DNA from: a virus
Virus record (IMG/VR): IMGVR_UViG_3300035698_035397
Location: 1-22,378 of that record
Strand: one strand, 5' to 3'
DNA: 22,378 bases
Made by a program: the position numbers and the translations under genes. Under the pieces are notes generated by a model. That model worked only from the letters and a program-made list of their open reading frames with translations, had not been told where the DNA came from and searched no databases. Shown here piece by piece: positions 1,669-19,623 of this stretch (positions are counted from its first letter, which is position 1; every line of letters starts with the position of its first letter).

Positions 1669-2777
1669 AGTACCTAAGTTTATTCTCGGGAATTGGTGGA
1701 TTTGAGCTAGGAATAGCAAAAGCCTATGAAATCATGCGCACTAAGAACAAGAGACAGAGGATGCAAGGAACTAGAAATAAGAAAAGACAATCTAGTAAAC
1801 GCAGTCACTTCGGTCCAAACAGATTCACTTGTGTTGGTTATTCCGAAATTGACAAATATGCAATTGAAATTTATCAAAAAAGATTCCCTGAACATAAAAA
1901 CTATGGAGACATTACAAAAATCAAATCAGAAAAACTGCCAGACTTCGATCTATTGGTCGGAGGATTTCCGTGTCAGGCTTTCTCAATTGCTGGAAAAAGG
2001 AAAGGCTTCGAAGATACGCGCGGTACGCTCTTTTTTGATATCGCACGCATTCTCAGAAATAAAAAGCCAAAACTTATCTTACTGGAAAACGTCAAAGGAC
2101 TGCTATCTCATGACAATGGCAACACTTTCAAAACCATTATCTCCACGCTTACAAAACTGGGGTACGACGTTCAGTGGCAAGTGCTTAACTCAAAGAATTT
2201 CGGAGTCCCTCAGAATCGGGAGCGAGTGTTCATTGTTGGACATCTTAGAGGCACAACCCGACCAAAAGTATTTCCTTTCACCGAAAACAACAGCGAGGAT
2301 ATTGTCCTACCAACCATCACGACACGTGTTACTGCAGACTCGAACGGAACTTATGTTGGTAAAAGATCGCCACGTCAAATCATAGGTGGCAGTCAAGGAA
2401 ATAGAGTCTACGATCCCAAAGGAATATCAACCACGATCGCAAGCCAAGCAGGAGGTCTCGGTGCGAAGACAGGGTTGTACGCAGTTGGTGGACTCCAGGA
2501 TCACCAGAAACCTCGCAAAGATGGTATCTCTCCAACACTCACTCAAGCAATGGGAATGGGTGGCGGACAGACACCGATAGTCTGGTCCAAGAAGATAAAG
2601 ATTCGCAGACTTACTCCAACCGAATGTGAACGTCTTCAAGGATTTCCTGACGGATGGACGGAAGGAATAAGTGACACGCAAAGATACAAGGTGCTCGGAA
2701 ATGCAGTGACAGTAAACGTAGTGATTGAAGTTGCAAGAAGAATCATTACTGAAGATAAAAATTATGTACAACGCTAA
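1665..2777 (+). CDS. C5-cytosine DNA methyltransferase (Dcm family)
   Basis: 370 residues with the family's conserved motifs in order: SAM-binding LSLFSGIGGFELG (4-16), catalytic GGFPCQAFS with Cys103 (99-107), ENVKGL (141-146), QNRERVFIVG (183-192), and the C-terminal RRLTPTECERLQGFP (314-328) and KVLGNAV (342-348). Between motifs VIII and IX is a target-recognition region of about 120 residues with two similar stretches (DPKGISTTIAS and KDGISPTLTQAM). It transfers methyl from SAM to C5 of cytosine in a short target. No partner endonuclease is adjacent, so it is an orphan enzyme, probably for anti-restriction or genome marking. Odd: a very basic insert, residues 24-53, lies between motifs I and II. 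The start overlaps rusA (ATGA). Confidence 0.93.
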   Translation: MKYLSLFSGIGGFELGIAKAYEIMRTKNKRQRMQGTRNKKRQSSKRSHFGPNRFTCVGYSEIDKYAIEIYQKRFPEHKNYGDITKIKSEKLPDFDLLVGGFPCQAFSIAGKRKGFEDTRGTLFFDIARILRNKKPKLILLENVKGLLSHDNGNTFKTIISTLTKLGYDVQWQVLNSKNFGVPQNRERVFIVGHLRGTTRPKVFPFTENNSEDIVLPTITTRVTADSNGTYVGKRSPRQIIGGSQGNRVYDPKGISTTIASQAGGLGAKTGLYAVGGLQDHQKPRKDGISPTLTQAMGMGGGQTPIVWSKKIKIRRLTPTECERLQGFPDGWTEGISDTQRYKVLGNAVTVNVVIEVARRIITEDKNYVQR

Positions 2778-3147
2778 TAATCCACAACATAGACTAACCC
2801 CCGATCAAGTAAAGCATCTTCAGCGTTGCTTTGAGGATGAGGGTTGGCGGATTAATTGGCTTTCAGTTTATTTTGGAATTGATAAAAAGTCGGTGCTATT
2901 TCATGTCAGACATAACGGCTGGGTCCGAAGAATAAAAGTCACTCGATATATGCCTAATGAGATTGCAGAAATATATCGAGAACGGAGAAAACAAAAGTAC
3001 GAACTCAAGCTCAAAGGAACGTACCATTTTATTAAGATGTCGGCCGAGCAACACAGAGTAGAAAACTGCGGACATATCCGATGGGTAAAGCGCTGTAGTT
3101 CATGCAGTCAAATACTCGGATCGGATGCGACAGAACATAAACATTAA
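2764..3147 (+). CDS. HTH protein with C-terminal zinc-binding motif
   Basis: 127 residues from the ATG at 2764. I chose it over an in-frame ATG at 2725 because it cuts the overlap with the methyltransferase from 53 to 14 nt. Residues 11-52 (LTPDQVKHLQRCFED, then GWRINWLSVYFGIDKKSVLFHVRHNGW) read as a helix-turn-helix of the homeodomain/resolvase type. A basic helix follows. The C-terminus carries Cys102, His104, Cys111 and Cys114 (NCGHIRWVKRCSSC), a plausible zinc site. It is likely a phage DNA-binding regulator. The specific family is not recognised, and its target is unknown; it is one candidate activator for the repeated late-promoter element elsewhere in the window. Confidence 0.65.
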   Translation: MYNANNPQHRLTPDQVKHLQRCFEDEGWRINWLSVYFGIDKKSVLFHVRHNGWVRRIKVTRYMPNEIAEIYRERRKQKYELKLKGTYHFIKMSAEQHRVENCGHIRWVKRCSSCSQILGSDATEHKH

Positions 3148-3566: not shown

Positions 3567-4895
3567 ATGCAAATCACAGATGTAAAAAAATATGACAAGA
3601 ACGCAAAAGAGCATCCAGGCTTTCAGCTCGAGAAGATAGCGAGCTCCATAAAAGCATTCGGATGTAAGCAACCGATTATTCTCGATAAAGATAATGTGAT
3701 TGTTGTGGGTCATGGCCGTTTTATTGCAATGACAGAACTGCTCGGCTACACACTGATGGAATCAAAAGCATTCACAAGAAAAGGCGAGCCTATTATTCCG
3801 TACATGTTGATTGATGATTTGAATGAAGAAGAAATAAAAGCATATCGAATTGCAGATAATCAACTCAACGCGCTTACAGGTCAAGATATGGTCCTCATTA
3901 CTGAGGAGTTGAAGATGCTTGATGAGTCTGGATTTGATATCACTCTTACAGGTTTCGATAGAGATATTCTTCTTGAAGATGATGAGAAAGATGATGTGGT
4001 CCCTGAAGAACCAAAAGTGCCAAAGACAATACTTGGCGACGTGTATCAGCTTGGTCCACATACCATCGTGTGTGGAGATTCAACTGATAAGGATGCATAT
4101 GAAAAGTCAGTGCAACAAAGAAAGGTCGATTGTGTTTTTACTGATCCTCCATACAACGTGAATTATTCGGGACGAGGAAAGAACACAAGTGAAGGCATTA
4201 TGAACGATCACATGGACACAGAATCATTCGATACATTTCTTGAGAAAGCATTCGGATGTATTGCTGACGTTGCAAAGACTGGTGCAGGTTGGTATGTCTT
4301 TCACTCAACATCAACTCAAGCACAATTTGAAAAAGCACTCAAAAAATACGGAATGGCTATCCGTAATCAACTTATTTGGAACAAGCCAACTGCATCAATG
4401 GGATGGGGTGATTACCGATGGAAACATGAGCCGTTCTTCTACGCATCGAAGGACGGAATAAAAACAGTTTTCTATGGCGACCGCACTCACTCAACGATTG
4501 TGGATTTTCAAGACAGTGAACAGAAACTCATCAACTGGGCTAAGCGACAGAAAAAACTTGAGACTGAGGGTAAGTTTACGATATGGACAATGAAAAGAGA
4601 CAAGGTAAATGAGTATAAGCATCCAACACAAAAACCTGTAGAGCTTATAACCTACGCACTTATGAATAGCTCGAAAGCTGAAGACTTGGTGGTCGATCCT
4701 TTTCTTGGAAGTGGCAGTACTCTAATTGCATGTGAAAAAGCAGACAGAGTCTGTGCAGGAATAGAGCTCGATCCAAAGTTTGTAGACGTTATCGTTCAGC
4801 GATGGGTGGATTTCACTGGCATTGAGCAAGTGGTCCGAAACGGAAAACCTGAAAACTGGACGAAAACCATCTATGAGCATGAACCTACAGAATAA
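3567..4895 (+). CDS. ParB-N domain fused to N6-adenine/N4-cytosine DNA methyltransferase
   Basis: 442 residues, two domains. Residues 1-105 are a ParB/Srx-like N-terminal domain: KYDKNAKEHP, then CKQPIILD, VVGHGRFIAM (46-55, the GHGR box) and YRIADNQLNAL. Residues 155-430 are a class-beta amino-methyltransferase: the catalytic DPPY motif (193-196) precedes the SAM-binding DPFLGSGST (377-385), with HPTQKP (352-357) before it. It methylates the exocyclic amine of A or C. ParB-methyltransferase fusions of this order are common in phages and lack a partner nuclease. The ParB part may guide target choice, but this is inference. A short acidic linker (135-150) separates the domains. The stop lies inside the start of the small terminase gene, linking methylation and packaging genes in one operon. 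Confidence 0.92.
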   Translation: MQITDVKKYDKNAKEHPGFQLEKIASSIKAFGCKQPIILDKDNVIVVGHGRFIAMTELLGYTLMESKAFTRKGEPIIPYMLIDDLNEEEIKAYRIADNQLNALTGQDMVLITEELKMLDESGFDITLTGFDRDILLEDDEKDDVVPEEPKVPKTILGDVYQLGPHTIVCGDSTDKDAYEKSVQQRKVDCVFTDPPYNVNYSGRGKNTSEGIMNDHMDTESFDTFLEKAFGCIADVAKTGAGWYVFHSTSTQAQFEKALKKYGMAIRNQLIWNKPTASMGWGDYRWKHEPFFYASKDGIKTVFYGDRTHSTIVDFQDSEQKLINWAKRQKKLETEGKFTIWTMKRDKVNEYKHPTQKPVELITYALMNSSKAEDLVVDPFLGSGSTLIACEKADRVCAGIELDPKFVDVIVQRWVDFTGIEQVVRNGKPENWTKTIYEHEPTE

Positions 4896-7081: not shown

Positions 7082-7120
7082 AGTAATACACCAAAAAATG
7101 TGTTCTATCACACACATACT
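7082..7120 (+). promoter_or_regulatory. putative late promoter, copy 1 (before portal)
   Basis: AGTAATACACCA at 7082-7093, identical to copies at 11505 and 18386. A -10-like CATACT lies at 7115-7120, 9 nt before the portal ATG at 7130. The 12-mer begins 48 bp upstream of that ATG. The inverted repeat ATGTGT (7098-7103)/ACACAT (7112-7117) lies between them, only in this copy. The element sits in a 54-nt gap after the terL stop. The shared position supports 7130 as the portal start rather than the GTG at 7100. Function as a promoter is inferred. Confidence 0.7.
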
Positions 7121-7129
7121 GAAATAATC

Positions 7130-9145
7130 ATGGCACTAGCCCACTATAAAAAACGAGACGAACTAGCAAAGCAGGCTCTCAAGGAGATAGATTTTTCATA
7201 TAGGTACAAGAAGTCTCGAATGACTTCGTGGAATAAGAATGAGGACATGATGAATCCAGACAAGTCGAATCCATCAGTCATCTCTCCTTACGGCGGTTCA
7301 GTAGCTCAAGCAGACACAAGAGCACAAGTACCTTTATACAAGATGCATGGCTATGTCCACACAATCCTCTCAAAAATAGATAGTCCACTGACATTCAAAT
7401 ATGTAAAAGGAGAAACAGCAGACCTGAAGAAGTCTAAGCTGATGAACTCCATCAAAGACAAGGATGCAAAGATTGGACGTTGGAATTTCAAAGACCTCAT
7501 GGGTAAACGAGACTCAGCGATATATGGACGTACCATTTATCTTTATATGACCCGAAACGAAAAGGGTCAGTACAAGAGTCTCCTCAATCTGATTGATCCA
7601 AAGGACTTCCTTATTGATCCAGATGTTGGTGGCCTTTGTACAGAGGAAGAAGATGGAAGTGGCGTGGAGAAAGCAAACTATCTTGGATGGTGGAATACCA
7701 AGCTCACAAGAGCTCAAATTACAAAAGGAATAAAAGATGGTATTTACTACAAGAAAGTTGCAGAGGATTTAATGGATGGTGGCACTAACTCTAAAGCCAA
7801 AACCAATCAAGACGACGATAAAGACAACAGAAAACCTTCCGGTGCTCCACGTGATAGATACAAGAATGAGAACCAGTTTATTTTTTATACATGGATAACG
7901 ACTGATGAGAATGACGAACGTTATTATTTGGTCCTAACACCATCCGGAGATTGCATCAGGTGTGAATCATGGAAAAATATTCGAAAGAGTGGTAAGTACC
8001 CAATATGGACATGGGCAGCGTTCCCTGACCCGAGAGAGTTTTGGACGCCATCTTACTGCGACTTTGCACGTGGCATATTCCAAGCACAGGAAAAGAGTAT
8101 CAATCAGTCACTCGATAACTCTGAACAGATCAACAGACCACAGACAGCCGTCAACGTTGACTATGTTCGAAACTTAGCGCAAGTTCGTTACAGAAAAGAC
8201 GGGTACATTGAAATCGAAGGAAACGTGGACGTGAATCGAGTACTTCAAACAAGGCAGACTCCTGCAATTGAAGGTCCATTCAAAGTGTACGACAAATTAG
8301 AATCAATAGTCGAATCAGAAAGCGGAGTAACCTCAGACGTGAAAGGTACCAGCGATGAAGACACTCTTGGAATCTACGAAGGAAACCTCATGCAAGCAGG
8401 AGATCGGTTCGGACTTTTGAATAAAAGCTATGCCGAAGGATACTACCGATTTGCAGTACTGCATAAAGAAGGAGTGATGCAAGACTTAAAAAAGAAAATG
8501 GCAGTGCAGATACTTGGTCCAATGGGACTTGATATAGAAATGGTAAGTGCTAGAGATTTGAAACCATTTACAAATGATTACGATATTCTAGTCGAATCAA
8601 GTATTGCTGAGGCACAAAGTAACTTAGCGGATAGTAAGAATAAGCTCACATTCCTAGGATCCTACAAAGGAGATCAAACAATTAATCAGAAAGTATTATT
8701 TGAAACCCAAGCGACAATAGCAGGAGTAGATGACGACACCATTAAACGACTTCTTGATACCAATGATTATGATGCGATTGAAGTTGTGGCACAGGCAGAC
8801 GAAGCATTCCAAATGATTATTGGTGGGGATACTCCTCCACTTTATAAAGATGCAAATACAGCATTCCTACAACGACTCCACGATTTGTCTGACAAGTACG
8901 ATCATGAAATTACTCCTGAACAACATGAAGCAGTGTTCTCCTATATCGATAACATAACACCGATTGTGGAGAAGAATGCGTCACGATCAATAGTGGCAGA
9001 GTCTGCAAAAGCAGGTCTTATCAGTGGGTCTGGAGGAATGGTCGATGGAACCGAACTAAATGATACAAATCTTGCAGCAGATGAACCAATCCCTCCTGGT
9101 GATCCAGGTGCGGAGGCGGCTATTACCGCAGCATTATCAAAATAA
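7130..9145 (+). CDS. portal protein
   Basis: 671 residues from ATG 7130, preferred over the in-frame GTG at 7100 because of its place behind the repeated late-promoter element. The position directly after terL, the length and the sequence pattern fit a podovirus-type portal. Visible features are an N-terminal region (residues 65-140) ending with a KDLMGKRDSAIYGRTIYLYM strand/helix, the LIDPKDFLIDPDVGG stretch (154-168) typical of portals, a long helical segment around SESGVTSDVKGTSDEDTLG, and an alanine-rich acidic C-terminal tail. The dodecameric portal forms the head vertex through which DNA passes and to which terminase and tail attach. It heads the first of three late blocks. No scaffold or coat gene follows, which is unusual. 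Confidence 0.8.
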   Translation: MALAHYKKRDELAKQALKEIDFSYRYKKSRMTSWNKNEDMMNPDKSNPSVISPYGGSVAQADTRAQVPLYKMHGYVHTILSKIDSPLTFKYVKGETADLKKSKLMNSIKDKDAKIGRWNFKDLMGKRDSAIYGRTIYLYMTRNEKGQYKSLLNLIDPKDFLIDPDVGGLCTEEEDGSGVEKANYLGWWNTKLTRAQITKGIKDGIYYKKVAEDLMDGGTNSKAKTNQDDDKDNRKPSGAPRDRYKNENQFIFYTWITTDENDERYYLVLTPSGDCIRCESWKNIRKSGKYPIWTWAAFPDPREFWTPSYCDFARGIFQAQEKSINQSLDNSEQINRPQTAVNVDYVRNLAQVRYRKDGYIEIEGNVDVNRVLQTRQTPAIEGPFKVYDKLESIVESESGVTSDVKGTSDEDTLGIYEGNLMQAGDRFGLLNKSYAEGYYRFAVLHKEGVMQDLKKKMAVQILGPMGLDIEMVSARDLKPFTNDYDILVESSIAEAQSNLADSKNKLTFLGSYKGDQTINQKVLFETQATIAGVDDDTIKRLLDTNDYDAIEVVAQADEAFQMIIGGDTPPLYKDANTAFLQRLHDLSDKYDHEITPEQHEAVFSYIDNITPIVEKNASRSIVAESAKAGLISGSGGMVDGTELNDTNLAADEPIPPGDPGAEAAITAALSK

Positions 9146-9161
9146 TAATTAATTTAAATTT

Positions 9162-9491
9162 ATGTCTAAATCAAACAATGTGAAATTTGTAGAAAGTGAA
9201 GGTAAGTGGTTATGGAAAAGATACGATGAGAATGGATCGGTAATTTATCGAAGTTCATTATTTAATACTGAGCGAGAGGTTCGAGAGGATTATGATATCA
9301 ATGGAGAAGACTCTCAAGATTCTGAAGCTCAAAATAATATCTCTACAGATGCTATTAGCACTTCTGAAAATGGTGATAATACTAATACAGTCACACCACT
9401 ATCAGAACCAAATACAGCGGGAACTGCAATAGATGAGGAACCTCAGAATGAACAGATAGAAGATAATACCGCAGGACAAGCAACAATCTAA
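9162..9491 (+). CDS. acidic small phage protein, possibly scaffold- or linker-like
   Basis: 109 residues. The first 45 (KFVESEGKWLWKRYDENGSVIYRSS) look like a small beta-sheet domain. The pattern W-x-W-x-x-x-D-x-NG-x-x-I-x-x-S loosely recalls DUF1508/YegP, but the match is weak. The remaining 60 residues are a strongly acidic, Asn/Thr/Ser/Glu-rich disordered tail. Its place right after portal is where a scaffold protein is often encoded, yet there is no clear scaffold signature such as a basic C-terminal helix-turn-helix. The start follows AATTTAAATTT, the AT-rich leader type used here, and the stop overlaps the next ATG by one base (TAATG), so the next gene is probably translated by coupling. 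Confidence 0.55.
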   Translation: MSKSNNVKFVESEGKWLWKRYDENGSVIYRSSLFNTEREVREDYDINGEDSQDSEAQNNISTDAISTSENGDNTNTVTPLSEPNTAGTAIDEEPQNEQIEDNTAGQATI

Positions 9492-11509
9492 TGTTGAAAT
9501 TTAATTACCAAATTAAGAGGAAGGCAAAAGATAAGGGTGACTATCGAATCACTAAGCATGGACAGATGGCAGAGTTTTCCTTGCGTGAATTAAGTCGAAA
9601 CATTGAACAGATACGTAAGCAGTCAAAGGAAATGGAAGCAAATGCAAAACTTCAAGAGGCACTTGCAGATAATATTCGTAGAGCAAATCCTGACCTTGCT
9701 GTATTCATAAAGAAACTAACACCTAAGAAACGTCATGCACTCATCATGCTTTCTATTCAAGAAAACAAAGCAAGGCAATTCAAGGATCAGGAGAGAGAGT
9801 CGAAACGAATCCTCCGCACTATTACTAGCGAGGACAAAGAAGTCCGTAATCAACATTTTAATGGTTCAACATGGATAGACGTGGTGACAGGACTAAATTC
9901 TGACGACCTTTATGTATTCACAAATTACAGCTCACTAACAGGTGCGTGGACTTTTGCTGGTGGTCCAGGGGGGCTCTTTAAATTTGCGAATGCTAATCCG
10001 AATGATTATATTCAGCTTTATAGCTCTTCTGATTTTTTCTGTGGCTTTCCATTAATTGATAAAGCGCGTATGTACTTATGGGGAATTATTAAAGACCCAA
10101 CAAGTTTATATCGGAGCTATGTAGATGCACAACGTGCGGGTGTAAGTTTTACACAAATAGCAAATGAAAATATAGGAAGTGGTAATGGAATACAAACATC
10201 ATTCTCTGGAACTCTTGCGTTCAAGACGGGTCAGCCGAAGCGTAACTGTGGTCTCGTCACCATAAAGTGTACTGATGGTGGTGGAGAAATATTTATTGAT
10301 AATAAAAATGGAAATCTGAAAGGGAATACGGGTGGTGTAGGTACAATTAACTATGTCACCGGCGCATGGAACGTGAACTTCGTTACTGTTCCAGCAAACA
10401 CACCAAATAATATACAAGCAACGTATGTATGGGAAAACAGCACAAGTAAAGGTGTTGCTGATTTTACATATAGCTCATCAAGACTTGCCGGTGAGGGTGA
10501 TGTAATCCGACAAGACGAAGGTGGTGATGCAATTCAACAGCTCGTGATCGGTATAGACGGAAACTACTACTCACTTAAAAAGCAGAGTGCATATCAGCAT
10601 AAGTACACTGACGATGATAAAACTTTCAATAACCAAGTTGTCCGACGAAATATCGGTGTACTCACAAGAAAGAGTGTAGTAACAACCGGACGTGGCGTGG
10701 TTTTTATCAACACAGCGAACCCCGATCGCCCACAACTTACAGTGCTAGAGAAAAACCCACTAGGTGATGACATTCTTTCAACCGAAATCATCCCACGCTT
10801 TGCATGGGAAAAATTTGATTATTCAGATGCCGTGATGGAAACTTACGGACAATTTATTGTTCTTTGTTGTAGACAAGAGGGAAATATTATTAACGACCGC
10901 ATGCTTGTGATAGATATTGTGAAGAATACAGTGGACATCGTTAATTATGGAATGAGATCACTCGCTAAAGATTCCGGAATACTTTATGGAGGTAGCCCCC
11001 ATACCCAGACTGTTTACAAGATTCTTAATGGTTTTGATGATGACAGTTATGTCATTCAAAATAATTGGGATAGTAAATACGAAACTTACGGAACACATCG
11101 ACTTAAAAAATATCGCAGACTTCGATACCGAGGTGAAATTGATCCTGCTCAATATGTTGAAGTTTATGCCGATTTTGATGGAACTGGATACAATCTGGTT
11201 GGCACGATCAGAGGTGATGCAACTTATGTAAACAGAACAAGTCCTTCAAGCGTAGGAACCACCATGGTCGGTGAGTCAGCAATTGGAGGCGATGGAGAAG
11301 TAAAGGTTTATCCATATGAAATGGAGATCAAAGCAGTGAAAATTCCAAAATTTAGGCGCAGAAGTGTTCGATTTGTAGCCAAGGGTATTGGATACGTCAG
11401 CATAATGGAGTCAATCGATTGGGACATCCTTACCTATGAGGATAAATTACCAAAGGTGTATCGCCAAAAGCAGCATGTAAGTCTAGATGGAACACAGGTG
11501 AATCAGTAA
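9491..11509 (+). CDS. virion structural protein: N-terminal coiled coil plus beta-rich body (gp10-like tail hub?)
   Basis: 672 residues. Residues 25-125 are a charged, probably coiled-coil helix region (SLRELSRNIEQIRKQSKEME and on). From about 130 the character changes sharply to beta-rich sequence with many Gly, Asn, Tyr and Trp, including GTINYVTGAWNVNF (around 284-297) and repeated strand-turn units with single tryptophans that suggest a propeller-like fold. The body resembles in size and pattern the packaged-DNA-stabilising tail hub (gp10) of P22-like podoviruses; this is a pattern judgement only. The helical N-terminus looks like a separate small protein fused on. It is the last gene of the portal block; the next late-promoter element overlaps its TAA stop. 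Confidence 0.6.
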   Translation: MLKFNYQIKRKAKDKGDYRITKHGQMAEFSLRELSRNIEQIRKQSKEMEANAKLQEALADNIRRANPDLAVFIKKLTPKKRHALIMLSIQENKARQFKDQERESKRILRTITSEDKEVRNQHFNGSTWIDVVTGLNSDDLYVFTNYSSLTGAWTFAGGPGGLFKFANANPNDYIQLYSSSDFFCGFPLIDKARMYLWGIIKDPTSLYRSYVDAQRAGVSFTQIANENIGSGNGIQTSFSGTLAFKTGQPKRNCGLVTIKCTDGGGEIFIDNKNGNLKGNTGGVGTINYVTGAWNVNFVTVPANTPNNIQATYVWENSTSKGVADFTYSSSRLAGEGDVIRQDEGGDAIQQLVIGIDGNYYSLKKQSAYQHKYTDDDKTFNNQVVRRNIGVLTRKSVVTTGRGVVFINTANPDRPQLTVLEKNPLGDDILSTEIIPRFAWEKFDYSDAVMETYGQFIVLCCRQEGNIINDRMLVIDIVKNTVDIVNYGMRSLAKDSGILYGGSPHTQTVYKILNGFDDDSYVIQNNWDSKYETYGTHRLKKYRRLRYRGEIDPAQYVEVYADFDGTGYNLVGTIRGDATYVNRTSPSSVGTTMVGESAIGGDGEVKVYPYEMEIKAVKIPKFRRRSVRFVAKGIGYVSIMESIDWDILTYEDKLPKVYRQKQHVSLDGTQVNQ

Positions 11510-11543
11510 TACACCATTTTTTTCACTTTCTTGAATTCATACT
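11505..11543 (+). promoter_or_regulatory. putative late promoter, copy 2 (before fibre block)
   Basis: AGTAATACACCA at 11505-11516; the stop codon of the preceding gene (11507-11509) lies inside it. A -10-like CATACT at 11538-11543 ends 6 nt before ATG 11550. The 12-mer starts 45 bp before the ATG, as in copy 3. Same strand and layout as the copies at 7082 and 18386, which supports a shared late regulator. No Shine-Dalgarno precedes the ATG, so the transcript may start at or next to it. Confidence 0.72.
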
Positions 11544-11549
11544 TTAAGT

Positions 11550-12332
11550 ATGGCGTCAGGACTTACTAAAGTAATCGCAAATTTTGAGACATCTCTAGCC
11601 ACAAAGCTTGCTAGTGGTGCTGTTGGTGGTGCTCTCACAAGTGTTGTTGATAAAAATGGAGTAAGTCTCCCAACAGCTAAATACTGCATGATTGTCGATC
11701 GAGGAACCGGAGATGAAGAACACCTACTCTTTGATCTTACAGGTAATGCAATGGCGAATATCATCAGTGTCTCACGCCAAGGAGTGCAAACAATTGGAGT
11801 ACAAAATCTTAACGGACATCGCGCAGGAGCAAAGTGTTATCTTACGGATTTCGTAAACCTCAAACTTATTGTAGATATTTTGAATGGCGTAGATACCCTC
11901 GATTCAGTGAATCCTCTGAAGTATGATTCCGATCCAATCTTCACTGATTCAAAACAGCTGATCTCAAAAGGATATGTTGACGACAAGGTCGCTCTCTTTA
12001 TAAGCAATCTTCTTTCGGGAAACAATGTTTTTGCAGGTCTGAATTCATTTACACAGTCTCCTCAAGTTCCAACTCCGACCACAGCTAATGATGCTGCAAA
12101 TATGGCGTATGTCTTATCTCTCGTTTTTGGTGGCGTACTTGCTGGTGTAAACAAGATGACCCTCAACTACGATTCGTTCGGGAGAGTAAAAAATATTCGA
12201 GATAACGAACTCGGCACGATTTATATCGTGAGTTATGACAGTCAAGACAATCCGATAAAAATATTTGATGGCGTAAGTACGTGGAGACTGAATTACTCAA
12301 ATGACAGGCTTGTCAGTATTACAAAACCTTAA
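11550..12332 (+). CDS. tail fibre/appendage adaptor protein
   Basis: 260 residues. The first 110 residues form a beta-rich domain (KYCMIVDRGTGDEEHLLFDL, ISVSRQGVQ, LNGHRAGAKCYL) of the kind found at the base of phage fibres. Residues 170-190 contain QSPQVPTPTTANDAANMAYV, a form of the VPTPT-x-x-DAANKAYVD motif recurrent in tail fibres. The last 60 residues carry YD-repeat-like strands (LNYDSFGRVKNI, YIVSYDSQDNPIKIFDG, WRLNYSNDRL), perhaps a tip or cap. It is the first gene of the second late block and is followed 23 nt later by a larger appendage protein, which it may anchor. Exact family is not recognised. Confidence 0.7.
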   Translation: MASGLTKVIANFETSLATKLASGAVGGALTSVVDKNGVSLPTAKYCMIVDRGTGDEEHLLFDLTGNAMANIISVSRQGVQTIGVQNLNGHRAGAKCYLTDFVNLKLIVDILNGVDTLDSVNPLKYDSDPIFTDSKQLISKGYVDDKVALFISNLLSGNNVFAGLNSFTQSPQVPTPTTANDAANMAYVLSLVFGGVLAGVNKMTLNYDSFGRVKNIRDNELGTIYIVSYDSQDNPIKIFDGVSTWRLNYSNDRLVSITKP

Positions 12333-12355
12333 CAATTAATTTTAATAATAAATTT

Positions 12356-14449
12356 ATGTTTCAAGCACCACTAGGAAAAAATAAAAATACACTCGCTCAA
12401 CCACAAAAAGGAACCGCTATGTTTTCTGCTGTGATGCAGATGTATCAAGAATCCTTCAGGAAAGTTTTCAGATACAACGCTATCTCGTCTCAAGGAACTC
12501 TTTCTATTACCAGCATTCCTTTGAATGGAGAAACGATCACAATTGGAAATAAAACATATGCATGGCAGACCACCCTCACAAATGTAGACGGCAACATTGC
12601 AATCGGTGGTTCCTTGGCAGCTGCACAACAAAACCTGATAGATGCCATTAATCTCACATCAACAACTGGCGGTCCGGGCAATCAATATGCGACCGCAATG
12701 ACTGAACATCCTCAGGTAGCAGTTTCTACTTTATGGATAGCGAATACCTTAGCTATTACAGCAAAGACATTTGGAGTTGTTGGAAATTCAATTGTCACTA
12801 CAGAGACAATGGCAAGTGGATCATTTGATGCTGCAACTCTCGGTACTACTCGAGCAGGTGTCGATGAATCGGATGCGGATACGCTTTTATGGAGTGCGAA
12901 TATAAACAATAACTTTCCATCAAGCACTGCTGATCTTATGGATGCGACATGGTCAAACTTAAATGACTATAACCAGCAAGGTCAGGCAGGATGGAAGAAT
13001 AGTGACTTCGCATGGACACCCGAACTTATGGCTATTGATTCGTCAAGAAAAGTGGTAGCACCAGATCACTTTAATCGTTTATATAAAAGAATCAGAAAAA
13101 TATCTCCTAGATTTTATACACAAAAAAGAACCAGAGTATCTCTTGCATCACCATTTGTAACTCATGGATCAAATGGAGTGTATAAATCCATTCCTCTCGA
13201 TTCAACTCGTATGGCTTGGATTTACAACCAAGCTGCAGCAGTCGCAGGAACTTATCTTGTAATTTCTACTACTGATGCAAATGGTGTTCTTACTTTTGGA
13301 ACACCAGTTATTCTTGACACAAATCAAAATGCTGATTTTGTTGACATGGTCTTGGTAAATACTGACAAGATTCTGATCTCTTATGGAAATGCCGGAGCGA
13401 CGAACTTCATTACAACGAGAACTGCTTCAATCTCTCTCAATGTCATCACAATGAACTCGGGTGTGCAAGTTGCTGCCACTGCTGTCGTTGAATCGTATCT
13501 TTGTAAAGTTGATTCTGATAAAGCACTTCTCGCATGGAGAAATGGGACACAGGTTTCCTACAATGTGGTCACCCTTACTGGTACAGTTCCTTCATATGGA
13601 GCAACCTCAAACATCACAGGAAGTCCTACTTATACGAGACTATATCAAAATGGCACAGACAAGGCTCAATCATTCTATTTAAAATCAGGAAACTGCTACA
13701 CCGTAACCGTCACGGTTTCTGGCACATCGGTCTCATTTGGAGTGGAGCTTGTGATGATGAATGGCTCTCTATTCAACAACAAACTTAATCATGATGCGGT
13801 CCAAGTAGCCACTGATAAATTTATTTGGTTGGGAACTACCTATGATGAATCTGCAAATGGTGATCGTAGAAATTGTGCCTTCATCACTATTTCTGGCACC
13901 ACATCGACAGTAACTCAGACAACAAAAAGCGGTATGAACTCGATTGATACAATGCGTCTTTTTACTGTTACCCCAGGATCTGATTATTATTTTATTTGGC
14001 ACAACTCAACAAGCTGTAGAGGTAAGAAAATTATTGTTGATACAACAGCGAACACTTTGACCATGTCGTATGGAAACCCTGAACAACATCCAGAAAACGA
14101 AGGGGGGGATTACGGCCCTGACGGTATGTGGTTTTCGAATTGGGAATCACGGCATGACAATTTTGGTTTTGGTGGACAAAATATCTTTGTCCAGGTCGGG
14201 ACAAAAACATTCATGATGGGTCTTGGTCTTGGAAGTTATTTTGAATATGTATCGACAGATCAAATTTCTCTTCAAGTGCTCTATCAAGAAAATGTTGTAG
14301 CAACACTACAGTGCAACTATAACTTTCTAGTTGAACCGAAGGATATAAATCTCTCACTCTCTGATTATTGCGTACATTATAAAATAAAAAATAATAGTTC
14401 GATACCTATATATCTTCACCAGCGTCGCATCTGGATGGAATTGGAATAA
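12356..14449 (+). CDS. large tail appendage / receptor-binding candidate with propeller-like repeats
   Basis: 697 residues. Residues 48-165 hold a domain widespread in phage virion proteins: IPLNGETITIGNKTYAW, then AAAQQNLIDAIN, LAITAKTFGVVGNSI and ATLGTTRAGVD. Residues 240-600 show a recurring unit of about 45-55 residues (lDStrmaWiYn, vntDKilISYgn, vdsDKALLAWrn, qvatDKFIWLGtt) typical of beta-propeller blades. The C-terminal 100 residues are beta-rich with LHQRRIWMELE at the very end. Large size, domain make-up and place among fibre genes suggest a surface appendage that contacts the host. The leader ends in AATAAATTT before the ATG. No lyase or hydrolase motif was seen. Confidence 0.65.
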   Translation: MFQAPLGKNKNTLAQPQKGTAMFSAVMQMYQESFRKVFRYNAISSQGTLSITSIPLNGETITIGNKTYAWQTTLTNVDGNIAIGGSLAAAQQNLIDAINLTSTTGGPGNQYATAMTEHPQVAVSTLWIANTLAITAKTFGVVGNSIVTTETMASGSFDAATLGTTRAGVDESDADTLLWSANINNNFPSSTADLMDATWSNLNDYNQQGQAGWKNSDFAWTPELMAIDSSRKVVAPDHFNRLYKRIRKISPRFYTQKRTRVSLASPFVTHGSNGVYKSIPLDSTRMAWIYNQAAAVAGTYLVISTTDANGVLTFGTPVILDTNQNADFVDMVLVNTDKILISYGNAGATNFITTRTASISLNVITMNSGVQVAATAVVESYLCKVDSDKALLAWRNGTQVSYNVVTLTGTVPSYGATSNITGSPTYTRLYQNGTDKAQSFYLKSGNCYTVTVTVSGTSVSFGVELVMMNGSLFNNKLNHDAVQVATDKFIWLGTTYDESANGDRRNCAFITISGTTSTVTQTTKSGMNSIDTMRLFTVTPGSDYYFIWHNSTSCRGKKIIVDTTANTLTMSYGNPEQHPENEGGDYGPDGMWFSNWESRHDNFGFGGQNIFVQVGTKTFMMGLGLGSYFEYVSTDQISLQVLYQENVVATLQCNYNFLVEPKDINLSLSDYCVHYKIKNNSSIPIYLHQRRIWMELE

Positions 14450-14461
14450 AAATTATTAAAC

Positions 14462-16081
14462 ATGGCATCTTACACGATAAAATATGGCGACACTCTCAGT
14501 GGTATTGCCTCACAAACAGGAAAGAGCATCCAGGATTTGATGCGTCTTAACCCTTCCATAGCTGACCCGAATAAAATCTATGCTGGACGTGCATTGAATG
14601 TTGGTGATAACGCTCCTGCAACTGTTACACCTCCTGCACCATCTTCAAATCAAAAACAAACAATTGCACAAGTAGCCAAGGTTTCAATTCCTAATTACAC
14701 AGAAGACCCAACTACCAAAAAGATAGGGCAATCCCTTAAAAACCAAGCAACGGAATCAATAAACGAAGAAGCTATTCGAGCCGCCACAAGGTCCCGTATT
14801 CAGGGCCAAATTGACGCCATAAACGCCGCTGTGAGCGATCAAATAGCTAACTTCAGGAATACTACGGGTAAGAACCGCCAAGGCCAAAGTTACGCCCTTG
14901 CGGCAGCTGGGGGCAGAATCGGCAGTCCTACAGGAGAAGCAGAATTTCGTACCACTGAAGACTTCAACAGACAAGAAGAACAGACATATCAAAGTCAGGC
15001 AAATGCACAAATATCATCACTCCTTGGCGTAGCAACTAGAGATGCAACAGCGGAAATAGAAGCTAAGCGTACTGCGATTAAGCAAGGTGCTGATAAATAT
15101 TTTGAGTTTCTTGAGACACAAGGTCAGCGGAAGCGTGATCAAATTACTGCATTTCTTCGTAACATGCTTGCGCTTGGTGTTGATCCAAACGAAATAGATG
15201 ATAAAGATTTTGAAAAGATTCAAGACCAATATGGTTTCAATAAAGATCAGTTGATTTCTCTATTTGGTGATATTAAAACTCAAAAAGGTGCGCAAGAACA
15301 AGAATCAGAAATATCTGCTGCAGACCTTGAGAAAAAGAAAATAGATATCGAAAAAACTAGAACTGAAATGAATCAGTTTGATTTGAGTGAGGGTGAGGCT
15401 CGGTATGTTTATGATCCAGAGACTGGTACAGCAAAACTTGTTGCAGCTCGAGCAAAAACATATGCCCCTGGTAGTGGAAGTGGCGGAAATAGTTCGGGAA
15501 CTAATCTCGCATATGATGATGCAAATTACACATTAGATGCAATTCGTAAATCAAAAGGTGGCCGAGTGATGACCCAAGGAGAGTTGAAACCAATCACAGA
15601 TATTCAAACGATTGTTAGTCAGGCAGATACTCTCACAAGTCTTATTAATACTGTCGACACCGGTCCAATCGTTGGAATCATTAAGAGCAATAATCCATAT
15701 GACACCAAGGCTCAACAAATGAAATCAGCAATCACTGCTATCGTTCCTAAACTCGCTCGTGGAGTTTATGGCGAAGTAGGAGTACTTACTGATGCAGATA
15801 TTGAGAATTATTCTCGAACCATTGCAAATCTTCAAAGTACAGCTGACGTGAACAAGGCGGTCATGGCAATGACTCTTGATATTGCTACAAGGTCACTTGC
15901 AAGCCAGCTCAATTCAATGGCAGCAGGTCAGCGTGATGTTTCTCGTTTTGAATCTATTTATAACGGACTTAACGCCAAAGCCACTTCACTTAAATCAGAA
16001 CTTGGATACGGTTCAGGCGGGGTAACTGAAACAAGCGCTTTCACAAGTAAGAGTGGAAAAACATATAACCTCCCAAATTAA
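14462..16081 (+). CDS. LysM-domain coiled-coil virion protein
   Basis: 539 residues. Residues 3-48 are a LysM peptidoglycan-binding domain: YTIKYGDTLSGIA, LMRLNP, then IYAGRALNV. A Pro/Thr-rich linker follows, then long helices with coiled-coil character (about 90-330, KKKIDIEKTRTEMNQF at the end) and a second helical region (370-510) after a Gly/Ser linker. There is no signal peptide, so the LysM must reach the cell wall on the virion or after lysis. Placed between the appendage and the glycine-zipper protein, it is most likely an internal or tail protein that grips peptidoglycan during DNA delivery. No catalytic cell-wall domain is seen. Two nt separate it from the next gene. Confidence 0.7.
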   Translation: MASYTIKYGDTLSGIASQTGKSIQDLMRLNPSIADPNKIYAGRALNVGDNAPATVTPPAPSSNQKQTIAQVAKVSIPNYTEDPTTKKIGQSLKNQATESINEEAIRAATRSRIQGQIDAINAAVSDQIANFRNTTGKNRQGQSYALAAAGGRIGSPTGEAEFRTTEDFNRQEEQTYQSQANAQISSLLGVATRDATAEIEAKRTAIKQGADKYFEFLETQGQRKRDQITAFLRNMLALGVDPNEIDDKDFEKIQDQYGFNKDQLISLFGDIKTQKGAQEQESEISAADLEKKKIDIEKTRTEMNQFDLSEGEARYVYDPETGTAKLVAARAKTYAPGSGSGGNSSGTNLAYDDANYTLDAIRKSKGGRVMTQGELKPITDIQTIVSQADTLTSLINTVDTGPIVGIIKSNNPYDTKAQQMKSAITAIVPKLARGVYGEVGVLTDADIENYSRTIANLQSTADVNKAVMAMTLDIATRSLASQLNSMAAGQRDVSRFESIYNGLNAKATSLKSELGYGSGGVTETSAFTSKSGKTYNLPN

Positions 16082-16083
16082 TT

Positions 16084-18384
16084 ATGCTTACTCGAGAAAA
16101 AATACAACAGAATATCGAAGCACTTGAGAGTCAGGGAGCAAGTCAACAAGAAATACAAGAGTGGTTAAATACTCTACCAACTTCATCTGCTCAACAACAA
16201 GAACCTACTAAGAAGAAAGATGGGATTTTAAAATCAATAGGGAAGGTGCTTATTTCAAGTGAACTTAAATTCGGGAAAAGTATCGCTGATGCATTGCCTG
16301 GTTTTGTTCCCGGAAGTGCGGCATGGACAAATAAACAAAACGAGGGGCTCATGAAGCAACATGAGGATATTGCAAATAATCTTCTAAAAACTATTAAGGA
16401 AAAGAAAGCTCGTGGTGAAGATGTCTCACGACTTGAGGTGGCACTTCAACAACACATTAAAGATACGAGTAAACCACCAATCGATATAAATGAAACAAAT
16501 GCGAGCGTGAATAAAACCGGCAAGCAAATATTTGGTGAAGGACTAGGTGTTGCTGCTGATATTCTGTCAGCAGGTTCATATGGAAAAGCAGCTCAAGGTG
16601 CACAATCAGGCAAATTACTTATTGCAGGAAAGATGTCAGGCAAAGCCGCAACAGTTCTCAGTAAAGTCGGGATTGGTAGTACTGTCTCAGCAAAAGCAGG
16701 TGCTCTTCCAAGTATTATCGGCGGAGGTACTAAAGCTCAAGCAGCACTTAAGGGTGCATGGCAAGGAGCAAAGCAAGGATTTACTTCAGGATCAATATGG
16801 GGAACAACACAAGGGGCTGCTCGAGCGATGCAAGACAATAAAAGTAATACGGATGTTGCATCTGATGCTATCGCAGGTGGAGTTATTGGAGGTGTTGCCG
16901 GAGGTACTGTTGGAGCAATTGTTGGAGGGACTAGTGGTTATGTAAATCGACGTCGAGAAATTAATCGAATACTCGATCCTGCAACAGCCTCGGATAGTAC
17001 AATAAATTCACTTCATGACGAGATATCAAAACATGCTGACGAAGACGTATTTAAAACCTCAATCAAGAGTGGTGATTTAAATATTGACCAAGTGTATCAA
17101 AAAGATGGGTCCCTAAACCCTGAATTAGCTAAAGGGAGAATAGATGATATTGCAGCAAACCTTGATCTTAAGATACCAGGAGCAGGAGAAAAATATCGAA
17201 CTCTTATTGATCCAAACAAAACTACTTTCGATGAACTTATTTCAAAGGCAGATGATGTAATTGACGATAGTAAAAAGATTCCTGCTGAAGTTATTAAATA
17301 TTCTGTAAACGCAGATGGTAAAAAAATAATTGATGAAAAAGCTACTGAGGCATTAAAGTCTGGTATTGCTGATCAAGATATCGCATTTATTAAAAATGCT
17401 TCTGTTGAGGACAAAAAGATATTTGATAAGGCTATGAAAGTTGCAGAACAAGCATCAAAAGATAAAGCATACTCACGTCAGCCAATCGAACAAGCTGGAA
17501 AAGTTTTGATTGATCAAGCAAATACTGTAGAAGGTGCAAGACAAAAGGTAGGGCATGAACTAGGAACCTTGAGAGCAAAACTTGGTGATGTGCCAGTAAC
17601 AATTACAGATACAGCTGATGTTTTTTATAAAGACTTAGATGATGCAGGGATTGTTATAACAAAAGATGGACTCGATTTCTCTAAATCAAAGTATGCCAAT
17701 GTTCCAAAAATTCAAAATATCATGGATAGTGTCCATCAGAGAATTGCCGGTCTTGGTGACGAGTCAAATGTAAAAAAAGTCGATATGATAAGACAACAGT
17801 TAGGCACTGAAGTTGATCTTGGAACCTTAGAAGGAAATCTTGATAAAAGTGCTAAACGTATCCTGCAGAAGATATATGCCGGTCTTGGAGATAATATTTC
17901 TTATATAGATACGGACTACGCAGAACTTTCAAATGAGTACTCAAAACTTTCAAGTGCTATGGATTATTTTCAAAGAGTGCTTGGAAAAGACTTTGAGGCA
18001 ACAAATATAAATTCATCACTTCGTGCAGGTGAAGTTGGAAGAAGAATACTAGGAAATGCATCATCACGACCTCTGGTGGTTGTTGAGAATATTCAAGACC
18101 TCGCACGCACTTATGGATTCGATAAAAGTATCGATGCGCGTAATCAGTTCTTATTCGCAAGTTTTCTTGAAGACTTATACGGTACTAATCAATCTCAAAG
18201 TCTTCAGAGTCAAATAACTAAGGGTGTAAATAGCGCAGAAGAAGCTAGGGGAGCGCTCACAGATGTTGCAACAGGAAACGCATCAGGGCTACTCTCAAAG
18301 GCTGTTAAAAAGGGTATCAATCTGGTAAGAAATATAACTCCAGAACGACAGATTGAAGCCGTAAGAGCTCTCATATCTCATTAA
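16084..18384 (+). CDS. large glycine-zipper virion protein, likely DNA ejection/internal protein
   Basis: 766 residues, mostly helical. The region 144-290 is rich in Gly and Ala with small hydrophobic helices, ending in a clear glycine zipper (IAGGVIGGVAGGTVGAIVGG, about 263-282). Such segments insert into membranes and are found in phage ejection proteins and some tape measures. The rest is long amphipathic helix with many Asp/Lys, and there is no enzymatic motif I can name. By position (after the LysM protein, before the lysis block) and size it fits an injected protein of a podovirus that forms the channel across the host envelope. A tape measure is the alternative, but no tube or sheath genes are present. 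Confidence 0.6.
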   Translation: MLTREKIQQNIEALESQGASQQEIQEWLNTLPTSSAQQQEPTKKKDGILKSIGKVLISSELKFGKSIADALPGFVPGSAAWTNKQNEGLMKQHEDIANNLLKTIKEKKARGEDVSRLEVALQQHIKDTSKPPIDINETNASVNKTGKQIFGEGLGVAADILSAGSYGKAAQGAQSGKLLIAGKMSGKAATVLSKVGIGSTVSAKAGALPSIIGGGTKAQAALKGAWQGAKQGFTSGSIWGTTQGAARAMQDNKSNTDVASDAIAGGVIGGVAGGTVGAIVGGTSGYVNRRREINRILDPATASDSTINSLHDEISKHADEDVFKTSIKSGDLNIDQVYQKDGSLNPELAKGRIDDIAANLDLKIPGAGEKYRTLIDPNKTTFDELISKADDVIDDSKKIPAEVIKYSVNADGKKIIDEKATEALKSGIADQDIAFIKNASVEDKKIFDKAMKVAEQASKDKAYSRQPIEQAGKVLIDQANTVEGARQKVGHELGTLRAKLGDVPVTITDTADVFYKDLDDAGIVITKDGLDFSKSKYANVPKIQNIMDSVHQRIAGLGDESNVKKVDMIRQQLGTEVDLGTLEGNLDKSAKRILQKIYAGLGDNISYIDTDYAELSNEYSKLSSAMDYFQRVLGKDFEATNINSSLRAGEVGRRILGNASSRPLVVVENIQDLARTYGFDKSIDARNQFLFASFLEDLYGTNQSQSLQSQITKGVNSAEEARGALTDVATGNASGLLSKAVKKGINLVRNITPERQIEAVRALISH

Positions 18385-18385
18385 A

Positions 18386-18422
18386 AGTAATACACCATAT
18401 TTTACCTTAAGACGAATCTACT
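18386..18422 (+). promoter_or_regulatory. putative late promoter, copy 3 (before lysis block)
   Basis: AGTAATACACCA at 18386-18397, 1 nt after the stop of the ejection-protein gene, and a -10-like TCTACT at 18417-18422 ending 8 nt before ATG 18431. The 12-mer begins 45 bp before the ATG, exactly as in copy 2. There is a GGAG at 18425-18428, but it lies only 2 nt from the ATG, too close for normal ribosome binding. Confidence 0.72.
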
Positions 18423-18430
18423 ATGGAGAT

Positions 18431-18709
18431 ATGGAACCACTAGCTTTCAAAAAGTTTTTATACAACCAAGTTGCACTTGTTGCTGGTATTGTAGGTGTCG
18501 CATTTGGAATCTTCAACATGCTTCAGGTCCCAAAAACTGATATAGAAGTTATCAATGCACTAAATAATATACGAGACAATCACATCCATACAATTGAAGA
18601 AAATGTAAAACGACTCGATGAACAACAGGGTGCGTGGTACCGAAGCACAGGAGAAAGACTCACGAAAATTGAGACTATTCTTGATGAGCGTTTACCAGCT
18701 AAAAAATAG
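18431..18709 (+). CDS. membrane-anchored coiled-coil protein, holin/XhlA-like
   Basis: 92 residues. One hydrophobic membrane segment (about 12-32, NQVALVAGIVGVAFGIFNML) near the N-terminus, then a coiled-coil region (40-85) with heptad-like spacing and charged residues (IEENVKRLDEQQ, RLTKIETILDERL). The general build resembles the small XhlA/lysis-accessory proteins, which have the opposite order (coil then membrane helix). It heads the lysis block behind late-promoter copy 3 and is 6 nt before the endolysin gene, so a role in membrane permeabilisation or endolysin anchoring is likely. It is not a confident family match. Confidence 0.6.
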   Translation: MEPLAFKKFLYNQVALVAGIVGVAFGIFNMLQVPKTDIEVINALNNIRDNHIHTIEENVKRLDEQQGAWYRSTGERLTKIETILDERLPAKK

Positions 18710-18715
18710 CAATTT

Positions 18716-19321
18716 ATGAATATCTCATTTCAACAATCACCAAATTATGTAAGCGGTCCCAAAAAAAAGATTGCTGTTGTTCTTCATTTTACACTCGGAT
18801 CATACGTTGGAGCAGTGGAATGGCTCAAGAATGCCAATCGTCCAAATCGCTCATCGGCACATTTTGTCATTGGACGGAATCCAAACGAAATTGTTCAGCT
18901 TGTGAAAATAACTGATATTGCGTGGCACGCAGGAGGTATAAATAATCCAAACGATCGAGCAAAAAAGATAATGCTCAAGAATTTGGATGGCTCATATGTA
19001 AATCCAAACCAGTACACGATCGGTATTGAACTTGCAGCCGGATATGACGTGGATCATGACGGAGTGGTCGAACCAAATGAAAATGATATTACTGAGTGGC
19101 AATATCAACAACTCACTGAACTAGTGAAGTCGTTCGCAGATAATTCAGACACAGTATTTATTCTTGATCCAAAAAACATCATCATTCACGGAGATATTGC
19201 GGACTACAAAGAAAAACCTGAGATTGTGCGAACGGAACTTCTTAAGAGATTGTTTCCAACTCAATCAATAAACAAAGAGGCAATCAAGACTCAGATAATC
19301 ACTTTACTAAACCAGCTATGA
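18716..19321 (+). CDS. endolysin: N-acetylmuramoyl-L-alanine amidase (Amidase_2/PGRP fold)
   Basis: 201 residues, a single catalytic domain, no signal peptide. Recognisable family landmarks are VVLHFTLG with Zn ligand His24, SSAHFVIGR (46-54), IAWHAGG with His71, IGIELA with Glu105, and IIIHGDIADY with Zn ligand His158. It cleaves the amide bond between muramic acid and the peptide stem. Two oddities. Residues 111-122 (DVDHDGVVEPNE) form a textbook EF-hand calcium loop. The residue before the conserved Pro after His158, normally the third Zn ligand (Cys or Asp before P), is Lys167, so that ligand is missing or shifted. The C-terminal helix (183-201) may bind the wall. Its stop overlaps the start of a 26-residue membrane peptide (ATGA). 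Confidence 0.88.
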   Translation: MNISFQQSPNYVSGPKKKIAVVLHFTLGSYVGAVEWLKNANRPNRSSAHFVIGRNPNEIVQLVKITDIAWHAGGINNPNDRAKKIMLKNLDGSYVNPNQYTIGIELAAGYDVDHDGVVEPNENDITEWQYQQLTELVKSFADNSDTVFILDPKNIIIHGDIADYKEKPEIVRTELLKRLFPTQSINKEAIKTQIITLLNQL

Positions 19322-19398
19322 GATACATCTCACAAATCATTATCGTAATCGTGGCATTTCTGTTCGCTTATGCAATCTGGTTAGAACATGTGCATTGA
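19318..19398 (+). CDS. 26-residue single-TM peptide
   Basis: A tiny frame starting at the ATG that overlaps the endolysin stop (ATGA). The product begins MRYISQIIIVIVAFLFAYAI and continues WLEHVH. It has one short basic residue, one strong hydrophobic helix and a short polar tail. Position between the endolysin and a two-TM holin-like gene, plus the four-base stop-start overlap typical of coupled translation, support it as a real lysis-block gene. It could be a mini-holin, pinholin or regulator. It is too short for a family call. Confidence 0.45.
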   Translation: MRYISQIIIVIVAFLFAYAIWLEHVH

Positions 19399-19443: not shown

Positions 19444-19623
19444 ATGAACAAAATTTATACATCAGCAAGCAAAATAGTTTTCATTCTTATGGCCGTCGCA
19501 GTAGTTGTTGGAATGTTTTATGGAAAAGTGGATGCTAAGGATTTTATGATTCTTGCATCGATGGCATTTTCTTTCTATTTTGCTAACAAAGGAGATAGCA
19601 ATGAGCCTTTTGCGGGTAAATAG
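19444..19623 (+). CDS. two-TM holin-like small membrane protein
   Basis: 59 residues: MNKIYTSASK, then a hydrophobic helix VFILMAVAVVVGMFYG (about 12-27), a short charged turn KVDAKD and a second hydrophobic segment FMILASMAFSFYFANK (34-49), and a charged tail. Two closely spaced membrane helices and a position just after the endolysin are typical of class II holins or small phage membrane proteins. The leader is AATAAAATATTT before the ATG, with no Shine-Dalgarno. A holin would form membrane lesions that release the endolysin, which has no signal peptide of its own. Confidence that this is a gene is fair; the specific role is inferred. Confidence 0.6.
   Translation: MNKIYTSASKIVFILMAVAVVVGMFYGKVDAKDFMILASMAFSFYFANKGDSNEPFAGK

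Follow-up and report, generated by a model that had tools for sequence, protein, structure and literature searches.

The C protein of phage Mu is a late activator that serves four late promoters (PMC4461284), and P2 Ogr, with its motif CX2CX22CX4C, serves four promoters whose late sites have the form TGT-N12-ACA (PMC3931495). The late promoters of the phiEco32-like phage 7-11 have the form GTAAtg-(16)-aCTA and belong to a phage sigma factor, gp47 (PMC8948821). Published work describes leaderless (TA-led) bacterial genes as marked by TANNNT about 12 bp ahead of the start codon (PMC3160421).

Patescibacteria make up a large share of bacterial diversity and are nearly uncultured; in the literature searched, no described late promoter was found for their phages. 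Here we analyze the IMG/VR record IMGVR_UViG_3300035698_035397 (22,378 bases, hereinafter the window), which represents an undescribed virus group of ultra-small Patescibacteria. Comparison of the window with its relatives points, with a probability that we put at roughly 0.8, to a late promoter system that is activated in a class II-like manner, yields leaderless transcripts and has a predicted cognate activator, most likely the product of the early gene g6.

A repeated element upstream of late operons

The 12-mer AGTAATACACCA occurs perfectly at 7082..7093, 11505..11516 and 18386..18397, on the plus strand only, and the distances from the element to the next ATG are 48, 45 and 45 nt, in full agreement with the initial annotation of this DNA. 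The first copy is located upstream of the portal gene (7130..9145, plus strand; PF23899 SU10_portal, E 4e-14; phrog_1216), which opens late operon 1, at the predicted positions -45 to -34. The second copy overlaps the stop codon of the preceding gene and stands before the first gene of the fibre block (11550..12332, plus strand, 260 aa, predicted leaderless); the distance between the ATG of this gene and the element is 45-47 nt in 15 of 15 phages. The third copy precedes the lysis block, which begins with a 92-aa gene taken from the ORF list (18431..18709, plus strand, predicted leaderless) and continues with an amidase (18716-19321, Amidase_2). Two ORFs of 59 and 26 aa just past the amidase (19444-19623 and 19318-19398) contain hydrophobic stretches and possibly encode a holin or lysis helper.

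Apart from the three copies, a scan of the window with two mismatches allowed matched only at 5808 and 16468, both intragenic, and the early genes of the window have no copy ahead of them, as had been stated. The further argument that a random 12-mer would hardly recur three times carries little weight: some 12-mer is present in three copies on one strand in 34 of 300 dinucleotide shuffles (11%), so the copy count alone is not decisive. What is decisive is placement. The noncoding share of the window is 3.2%, and the copies lie in (at 11505, extend into) the only three gaps that exceed 35 nt between 7.1 and 18.4 kb, which bears out the intergenic location originally described.

Relatives, putative hosts and variation of the element

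Searches with the terminase and the portal protein retrieved eleven related viral contigs; a genome scan yielded eight loci, all in bacterial assemblies with the label Parcubacteria, Paceibacterota, Patescibacteria or 'uncultured bacterium', and a search of 384 related genomes added one locus, on a 409 kb contig. Two extra terminase matches (L013 and L014) are merely 23% identical. Three proviruses are located within contigs of 358-409 kb, which marks these viruses as temperate phages of Patescibacteria. In tblastn searches of the 50,697 phage records of INPHARED, there was no match to the portal (E up to 1e-5) or to g6 (E up to 0.1), and a scan with g6 for further relatives produced no new phage. 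One 59.9 kb contig (G004, L021-L023) apparently holds two different phages in tandem, the second of which carries a separate set of g1-g3 homologues as well as a lysin that shares 77% identity with that of the window.

The element heads late operons in 20 relatives and never the early ones, so that conservation in relatives is now added to the original observation. The outcomes named in the initial annotation as refuting it, many further copies within genes or on the opposite strand and lack of conservation in relatives, were thus not seen. It is found before the portal gene in 20 relatives (18 phages tabulated), before the capsid genes in 15 of 15, before the fibre block in 14 of 14 plus the window, and before the lysis genes in 9 phages; at the lysis position it was not found in P36, P40, G007 and G011. 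On the short contig of the distant relative G1054, no repeat of this kind is present. In G008, two extra copies with the correct -10 box (positions 27257 and 31316 of the oriented contig) indicate a larger late regulon.

Each virus has its own version of the element at three or four late operons: the letters vary from phage to phage, whereas the sites within a phage mostly match. The versions seen are AGTAATACACCA, AGTAATGCACCA, AGTAATACACCC, AGTAATGCACGC, AGTAATTCCTACAG, ATGATTGCACAC, ATGAATCCGTGGTC, AATACCTACCG and GTAATGCAAC, with AGTAATGCACCA, AGTAATACACCC, AGTAATTCCTACAG and ATGAATCCGTGGTC each repeated three times within a phage. This agreement is imperfect (the P33 sites are mixed, with either A or G at position 7 and either A or C at position 12, and in P39 and P368 the lysis site has CCA in place of CGC), which fits selection for binding better than copying; outside the element, the sites within one phage differ. 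An inverted-repeat structure of the site was rejected: TGCATT on the right pairs with AATGCA in some phages but, in the CCTAC group, does not follow the changes of the left half. In G007, the portal and fibre promoters (9147 and 17254 of the oriented contig) have a near-identical stretch of 46-47 nt in common, as if recently copied.

The core promoter and predicted transcription starts

In the window, the -10 boxes, all on the plus strand, are CATACT at 7115-7120 (portal; predicted +1 at 7127, ATC followed by ATG), CATACT at 11538-11543 (fibre block; predicted +1 at 11550, the A of the ATG) and TACTAT at 18419-18424 (lysis; predicted +1 at 18431). The two CATACT boxes had been recognized in the initial annotation, whereas the TCTACT proposed for the lysis block is two bases off the register shared by the three sites. 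All 50 unshifted sites have A at offset 34 (-11) and T at offset 38 (-7), in a box 33 nt downstream of the element. This distance is fixed except in G007 and P40 (35 nt) and P38 (34 nt); with these spacing shifts, set by eye at +2, +2 and +1, the A-11/T-7 pair is present in 53 of 53 sites of the non-redundant set, compared to at most 25 of 53 in any other register. The consensus of the late promoters is cATACT with invariant A-11 and T-7. In sigma70 promoters, -11A and -7T are the two best conserved bases of the -10, and by this pattern the box downstream of the element is a sigma70-type -10. The original reading of the repeat as part of a late promoter is thus borne out by the position of the element, -45 to -34 upstream of an invariant -10, in 50 of 50 fixed-register sites.

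The -35 of these promoters is poor or absent, and a scan with the sigma70 consensus listed no promoter at any of the three window sites. The region from -45 to -34 is the binding place of class II activators. The element was initially described as a -35-region or activator element; given that 21 bp separate it from the -10, compared to about 16-18 bp in promoters of phage-encoded sigma factors, the activator alternative fits better and the -35 alternative less well.

With the box taken as -12 to -7, the +1 coincides with the A of the ATG at the fibre and lysis genes, namely at 15 of 15 fibre sites and at 8 of 8 lysis sites with a recognized gene; at the portal sites, the predicted +1 lies 0-3 nt ahead of the ATG in most phages. 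The fibre and lysis sites show the signature of TA-led genes, a TANNNT-like box some 12 bp ahead of the start codon. These features support leaderless late mRNAs for the fibre and lysis operons, for which the initial proposal of leaderless first transcripts holds; it does not extend to the capsid operon, which has a structured leader (see below). A single geometry would therefore give rise to leaderless mRNAs at some operons and, at one operon, to an RNA leader. In the host contigs used (L066-L085), TANNNT before ATGs peaks at exactly -12, with 43 of 312 in G013 (220 kb; about 6 at background positions) and 18 of 142 in G017 (108 kb readable; about 4 at background positions), which suggests that leaderless mRNAs are common in these Patescibacteria.

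The capsid operon

The first block of the window was originally described as portal/hub. The portal assignment stands, but the 'hub' ORF (9491..11509, plus strand) is a fusion of two genes that are apart in relatives: residues 1-121 come from a 124-aa gene and residues 121-672 from a 633-aa gene, joined in-frame at about 9854. In every relative spanning this stretch, about 3.7 kb separates the two parts, and the scaffold and capsid genes lie in this interval. The segment absent from the window comprises the scaffold, the major capsid gene, two further genes and the fourth element; accordingly, the window lacks the major capsid protein, and the capsid copy of the element is missing because this segment is absent. 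Homology at the joint is limited to a few bases, and both a real deletion and an assembly error fit.

An intrinsic terminator hairpin is located just upstream of the capsid element in 15 of 15 cases, and the predicted +1 lies within about one base of a conserved leader, (C)ATAGAGGGGCCAACCTCT. The leader folds into three hairpins, in which seven pairs show compensatory changes (L033:13264-13390, with equivalents in 12 relatives); an Rfam search matched no family.

g6, the candidate regulator

The g6 gene (2764..3147, plus strand, 127 aa) is located in the early operon, upstream of terL, and its product is the predicted activator on the basis of covariation with the element, an AlphaFold model and residue correlations. 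Two DNA methyltransferases are encoded around g6 in the same operon, a C5-cytosine enzyme (1665-2777) and a ParB-like plus N6/N4 protein (3567-4895).

The comparison covered 16 proteins in up to 13 phages, a small sample of phylogenetically dependent genomes, and of these proteins g6 covaries best with the element (Mantel r 0.75; partial r 0.70 given terL and portal; p 0.0005). The candidate was chosen before the proviruses were examined, and in the seven proviruses alone its partial r is 0.91. Linkage is not the cause of this covariation, since g7 and terL, the neighbors of g6, show no correlation with the element. As candidate regulators, g1, g2, g3, rusA, dcm, g7 and mtase were rejected because their partial correlations with the element are not significant. 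Other late proteins correlate as well, namely portal and eject (for eject, a partial r of 0.48 across the full set) and, in subsets, lysM and hub (for hub, 0.83 in the seven proviruses), so the g6 statistic is suggestive rather than conclusive. Given that g6 changes in step with the element, it is probably the switch, that is, the activator that reads the element.

The AlphaFold model of g6 (mean pLDDT 78) consists of a three-helix helix-turn-helix (HTH) domain at residues 13-50 followed by two long helices, and a putative zinc ribbon is made up of C102, H104, C111 and C114. The seven positions best correlated with the element include residues 31, 41, 45 and 50 of the HTH; the recognition helix was not retained as the sole covarying block, given that the putative helix ranks 9th of 127 positions. 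A 12-residue insertion in g6 is found exclusively in G007 and P40, which are also the sole phages with the +2 spacing (at three sites each); the short contig of P38, whose spacing is +1 at one site, lacks g6. Searches of Pfam, PHROGs, PDB sequences and Foldseek assigned g6 to no family with significance. The HTH fold had no significant structural match, and no homology of g6 to known activators was found. One of the 14 g6 members matches the HTH model of terminase gpP (3e-4).

In six phage records, which may be incomplete, no Sigma70_r2 or Sigma70_r4 match exceeded the cut-off, whereas the bacterial control genomes do match; the region 4 hits that appeared all stayed under the threshold. G008 has a weak Sigma70_r4_2 match (11.5 bits, compared to a cut-off of 25.7) inside the g6 HTH. 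The PF00940 search for a T7-type polymerase found none in the phages and matched no control genome either.

Proposed mechanism and alternatives

From the conserved layout, the -10, the concerted variation, the covariation and the leader structure, all observed in the sequences themselves, we infer a scheme of binding, activation, timing and start sites. Under this scheme, AGTAATACACCA is the predicted activator site, at -45 to -34 of promoters with a sigma70-type -10 and no -35, and host RNA polymerase would be recruited or triggered at the late promoters only in the presence of the activator. The early operon, judging by gene order, would produce g6, which, as the covariation suggests, would bind the element and, as the geometry suggests, contact the polymerase from the class II-like position, thus turning on the portal, capsid, fibre and lysis operons together. 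The fibre and lysis transcripts would begin at the A of the AUG and the portal transcript 0-3 nt before the AUG in most phages; capsid transcripts would begin after the terminator and carry the structured leader RNA. Each phage lineage would have changed the element and g6 jointly. A more speculative and, in our view, rather doubtful extension is that, in phages of Patescibacteria, g6 and the element constitute naturally diversified orthogonal activator-promoter pairs in which g6 is a detached substitute for sigma region 4 that anchors the host polymerase at a lineage-specific site in place of the -35 and gives rise to leaderless late mRNAs.

The alternative that deserves most consideration, although we regard it as unlikely, is that another phage or host protein reads the element and g6 covaries for a different reason. 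The correlation of several late proteins with the element in subsets allows for this, as does an early gene of about 396 aa that is present in relatives and absent from the window, the comparison having covered 16 proteins; yet g6 ranks first both in the full set and in the proviruses, linkage is countered by its uncorrelated neighbors, and g6 is the sole tested early protein that combines a predicted HTH with strong covariation. A phage-encoded alternative sigma factor, with the element as the -35-like half of its promoter as in phage 7-11, appears improbable. In its favor, the portal is of the SU10_portal family, sigma factors are encoded by phiEco32-like phages, a GTAAT within the element resembles the 7-11 -35 element (PMC8948821), and the sub-threshold match in G008 falls in the HTH of g6; however, the gap between the element and the box is 21 bp as opposed to 16 in 7-11, the six phage records have no match to either sigma region although the controls are positive, and g6, at only 127 aa, lacks region 2.

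Still less probable is an operator bound by a repressor that silences the late genes in the lysogen. Operators, too, recur at several promoters, and these phages are temperate, but the element lies upstream of a core without a recognizable -35, and such a promoter looks too weak to need a repressor. We give very little weight to an RNA signal, either a processing site or a translation enhancer, within longer transcripts: the element is indeed strand-specific and close to start codons, but ahead of the capsid genes it stands between a terminator and a noncoding leader rather than before a start codon, and the invariant A-11 and T-7 follow the pattern of a -10. The frequency of three-copy 12-mers in shuffles and the near-identical promoter stretch in G007 could be taken to indicate a chance repeat or a functionless gene-conversion tract; this explanation has hardly any probability left, a chance repeat being ruled out by the fixed layout across 20 relatives, in which sites differ outside the element.

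The activated late promoter system with g6 as its likely regulator remains our preferred reading. It predicts a regulon and transcription starts and names a candidate regulator, all of which can be checked by ordinary reporter and binding tests, and seven or so natural element-protein pairs are available for reading the DNA-recognition code.

Comparison with known systems

The proposed system resembles that of Mu C in that one phage activator would serve several late operons, including lysis, using the host polymerase, at promoters with a poor -35 and an activator site that adjoins or overlaps the -35 region. Unlike in Mu, the element lacks symmetry and differs from lineage to lineage, no sequence relation of g6 to a known family could be detected, the late mRNAs are predicted to be leaderless, and the capsid genes have a promoter of their own with a structured leader. 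The similarity to P2 Ogr and P4 Delta consists in a small, probably zinc-binding activator and four late operons; the site here, however, is a non-palindromic 12-14-mer, and g6 has the motif CXHX6CX2C after an N-terminal HTH. Assignment of g6 to the Ogr/Delta family was rejected, given that neither the defining motif nor the form of the site was found and that the 14 members show no Ogr/Delta-type Pfam match.

Phage 7-11 has a related portal family and bipartite late promoters that also start with GTAAt, but its promoters combine a 16-bp gap and aCTA with a true sigma factor, whereas those described here have a 21-bp gap and a cATACT box, and no sigma factor was found. With the TA-led leaderless genes (PMC3160421), the late promoters share TANNNT about 12 bp before the start codon; the difference is that here the box would belong to a phage promoter that is activated and has a regulatory element upstream.
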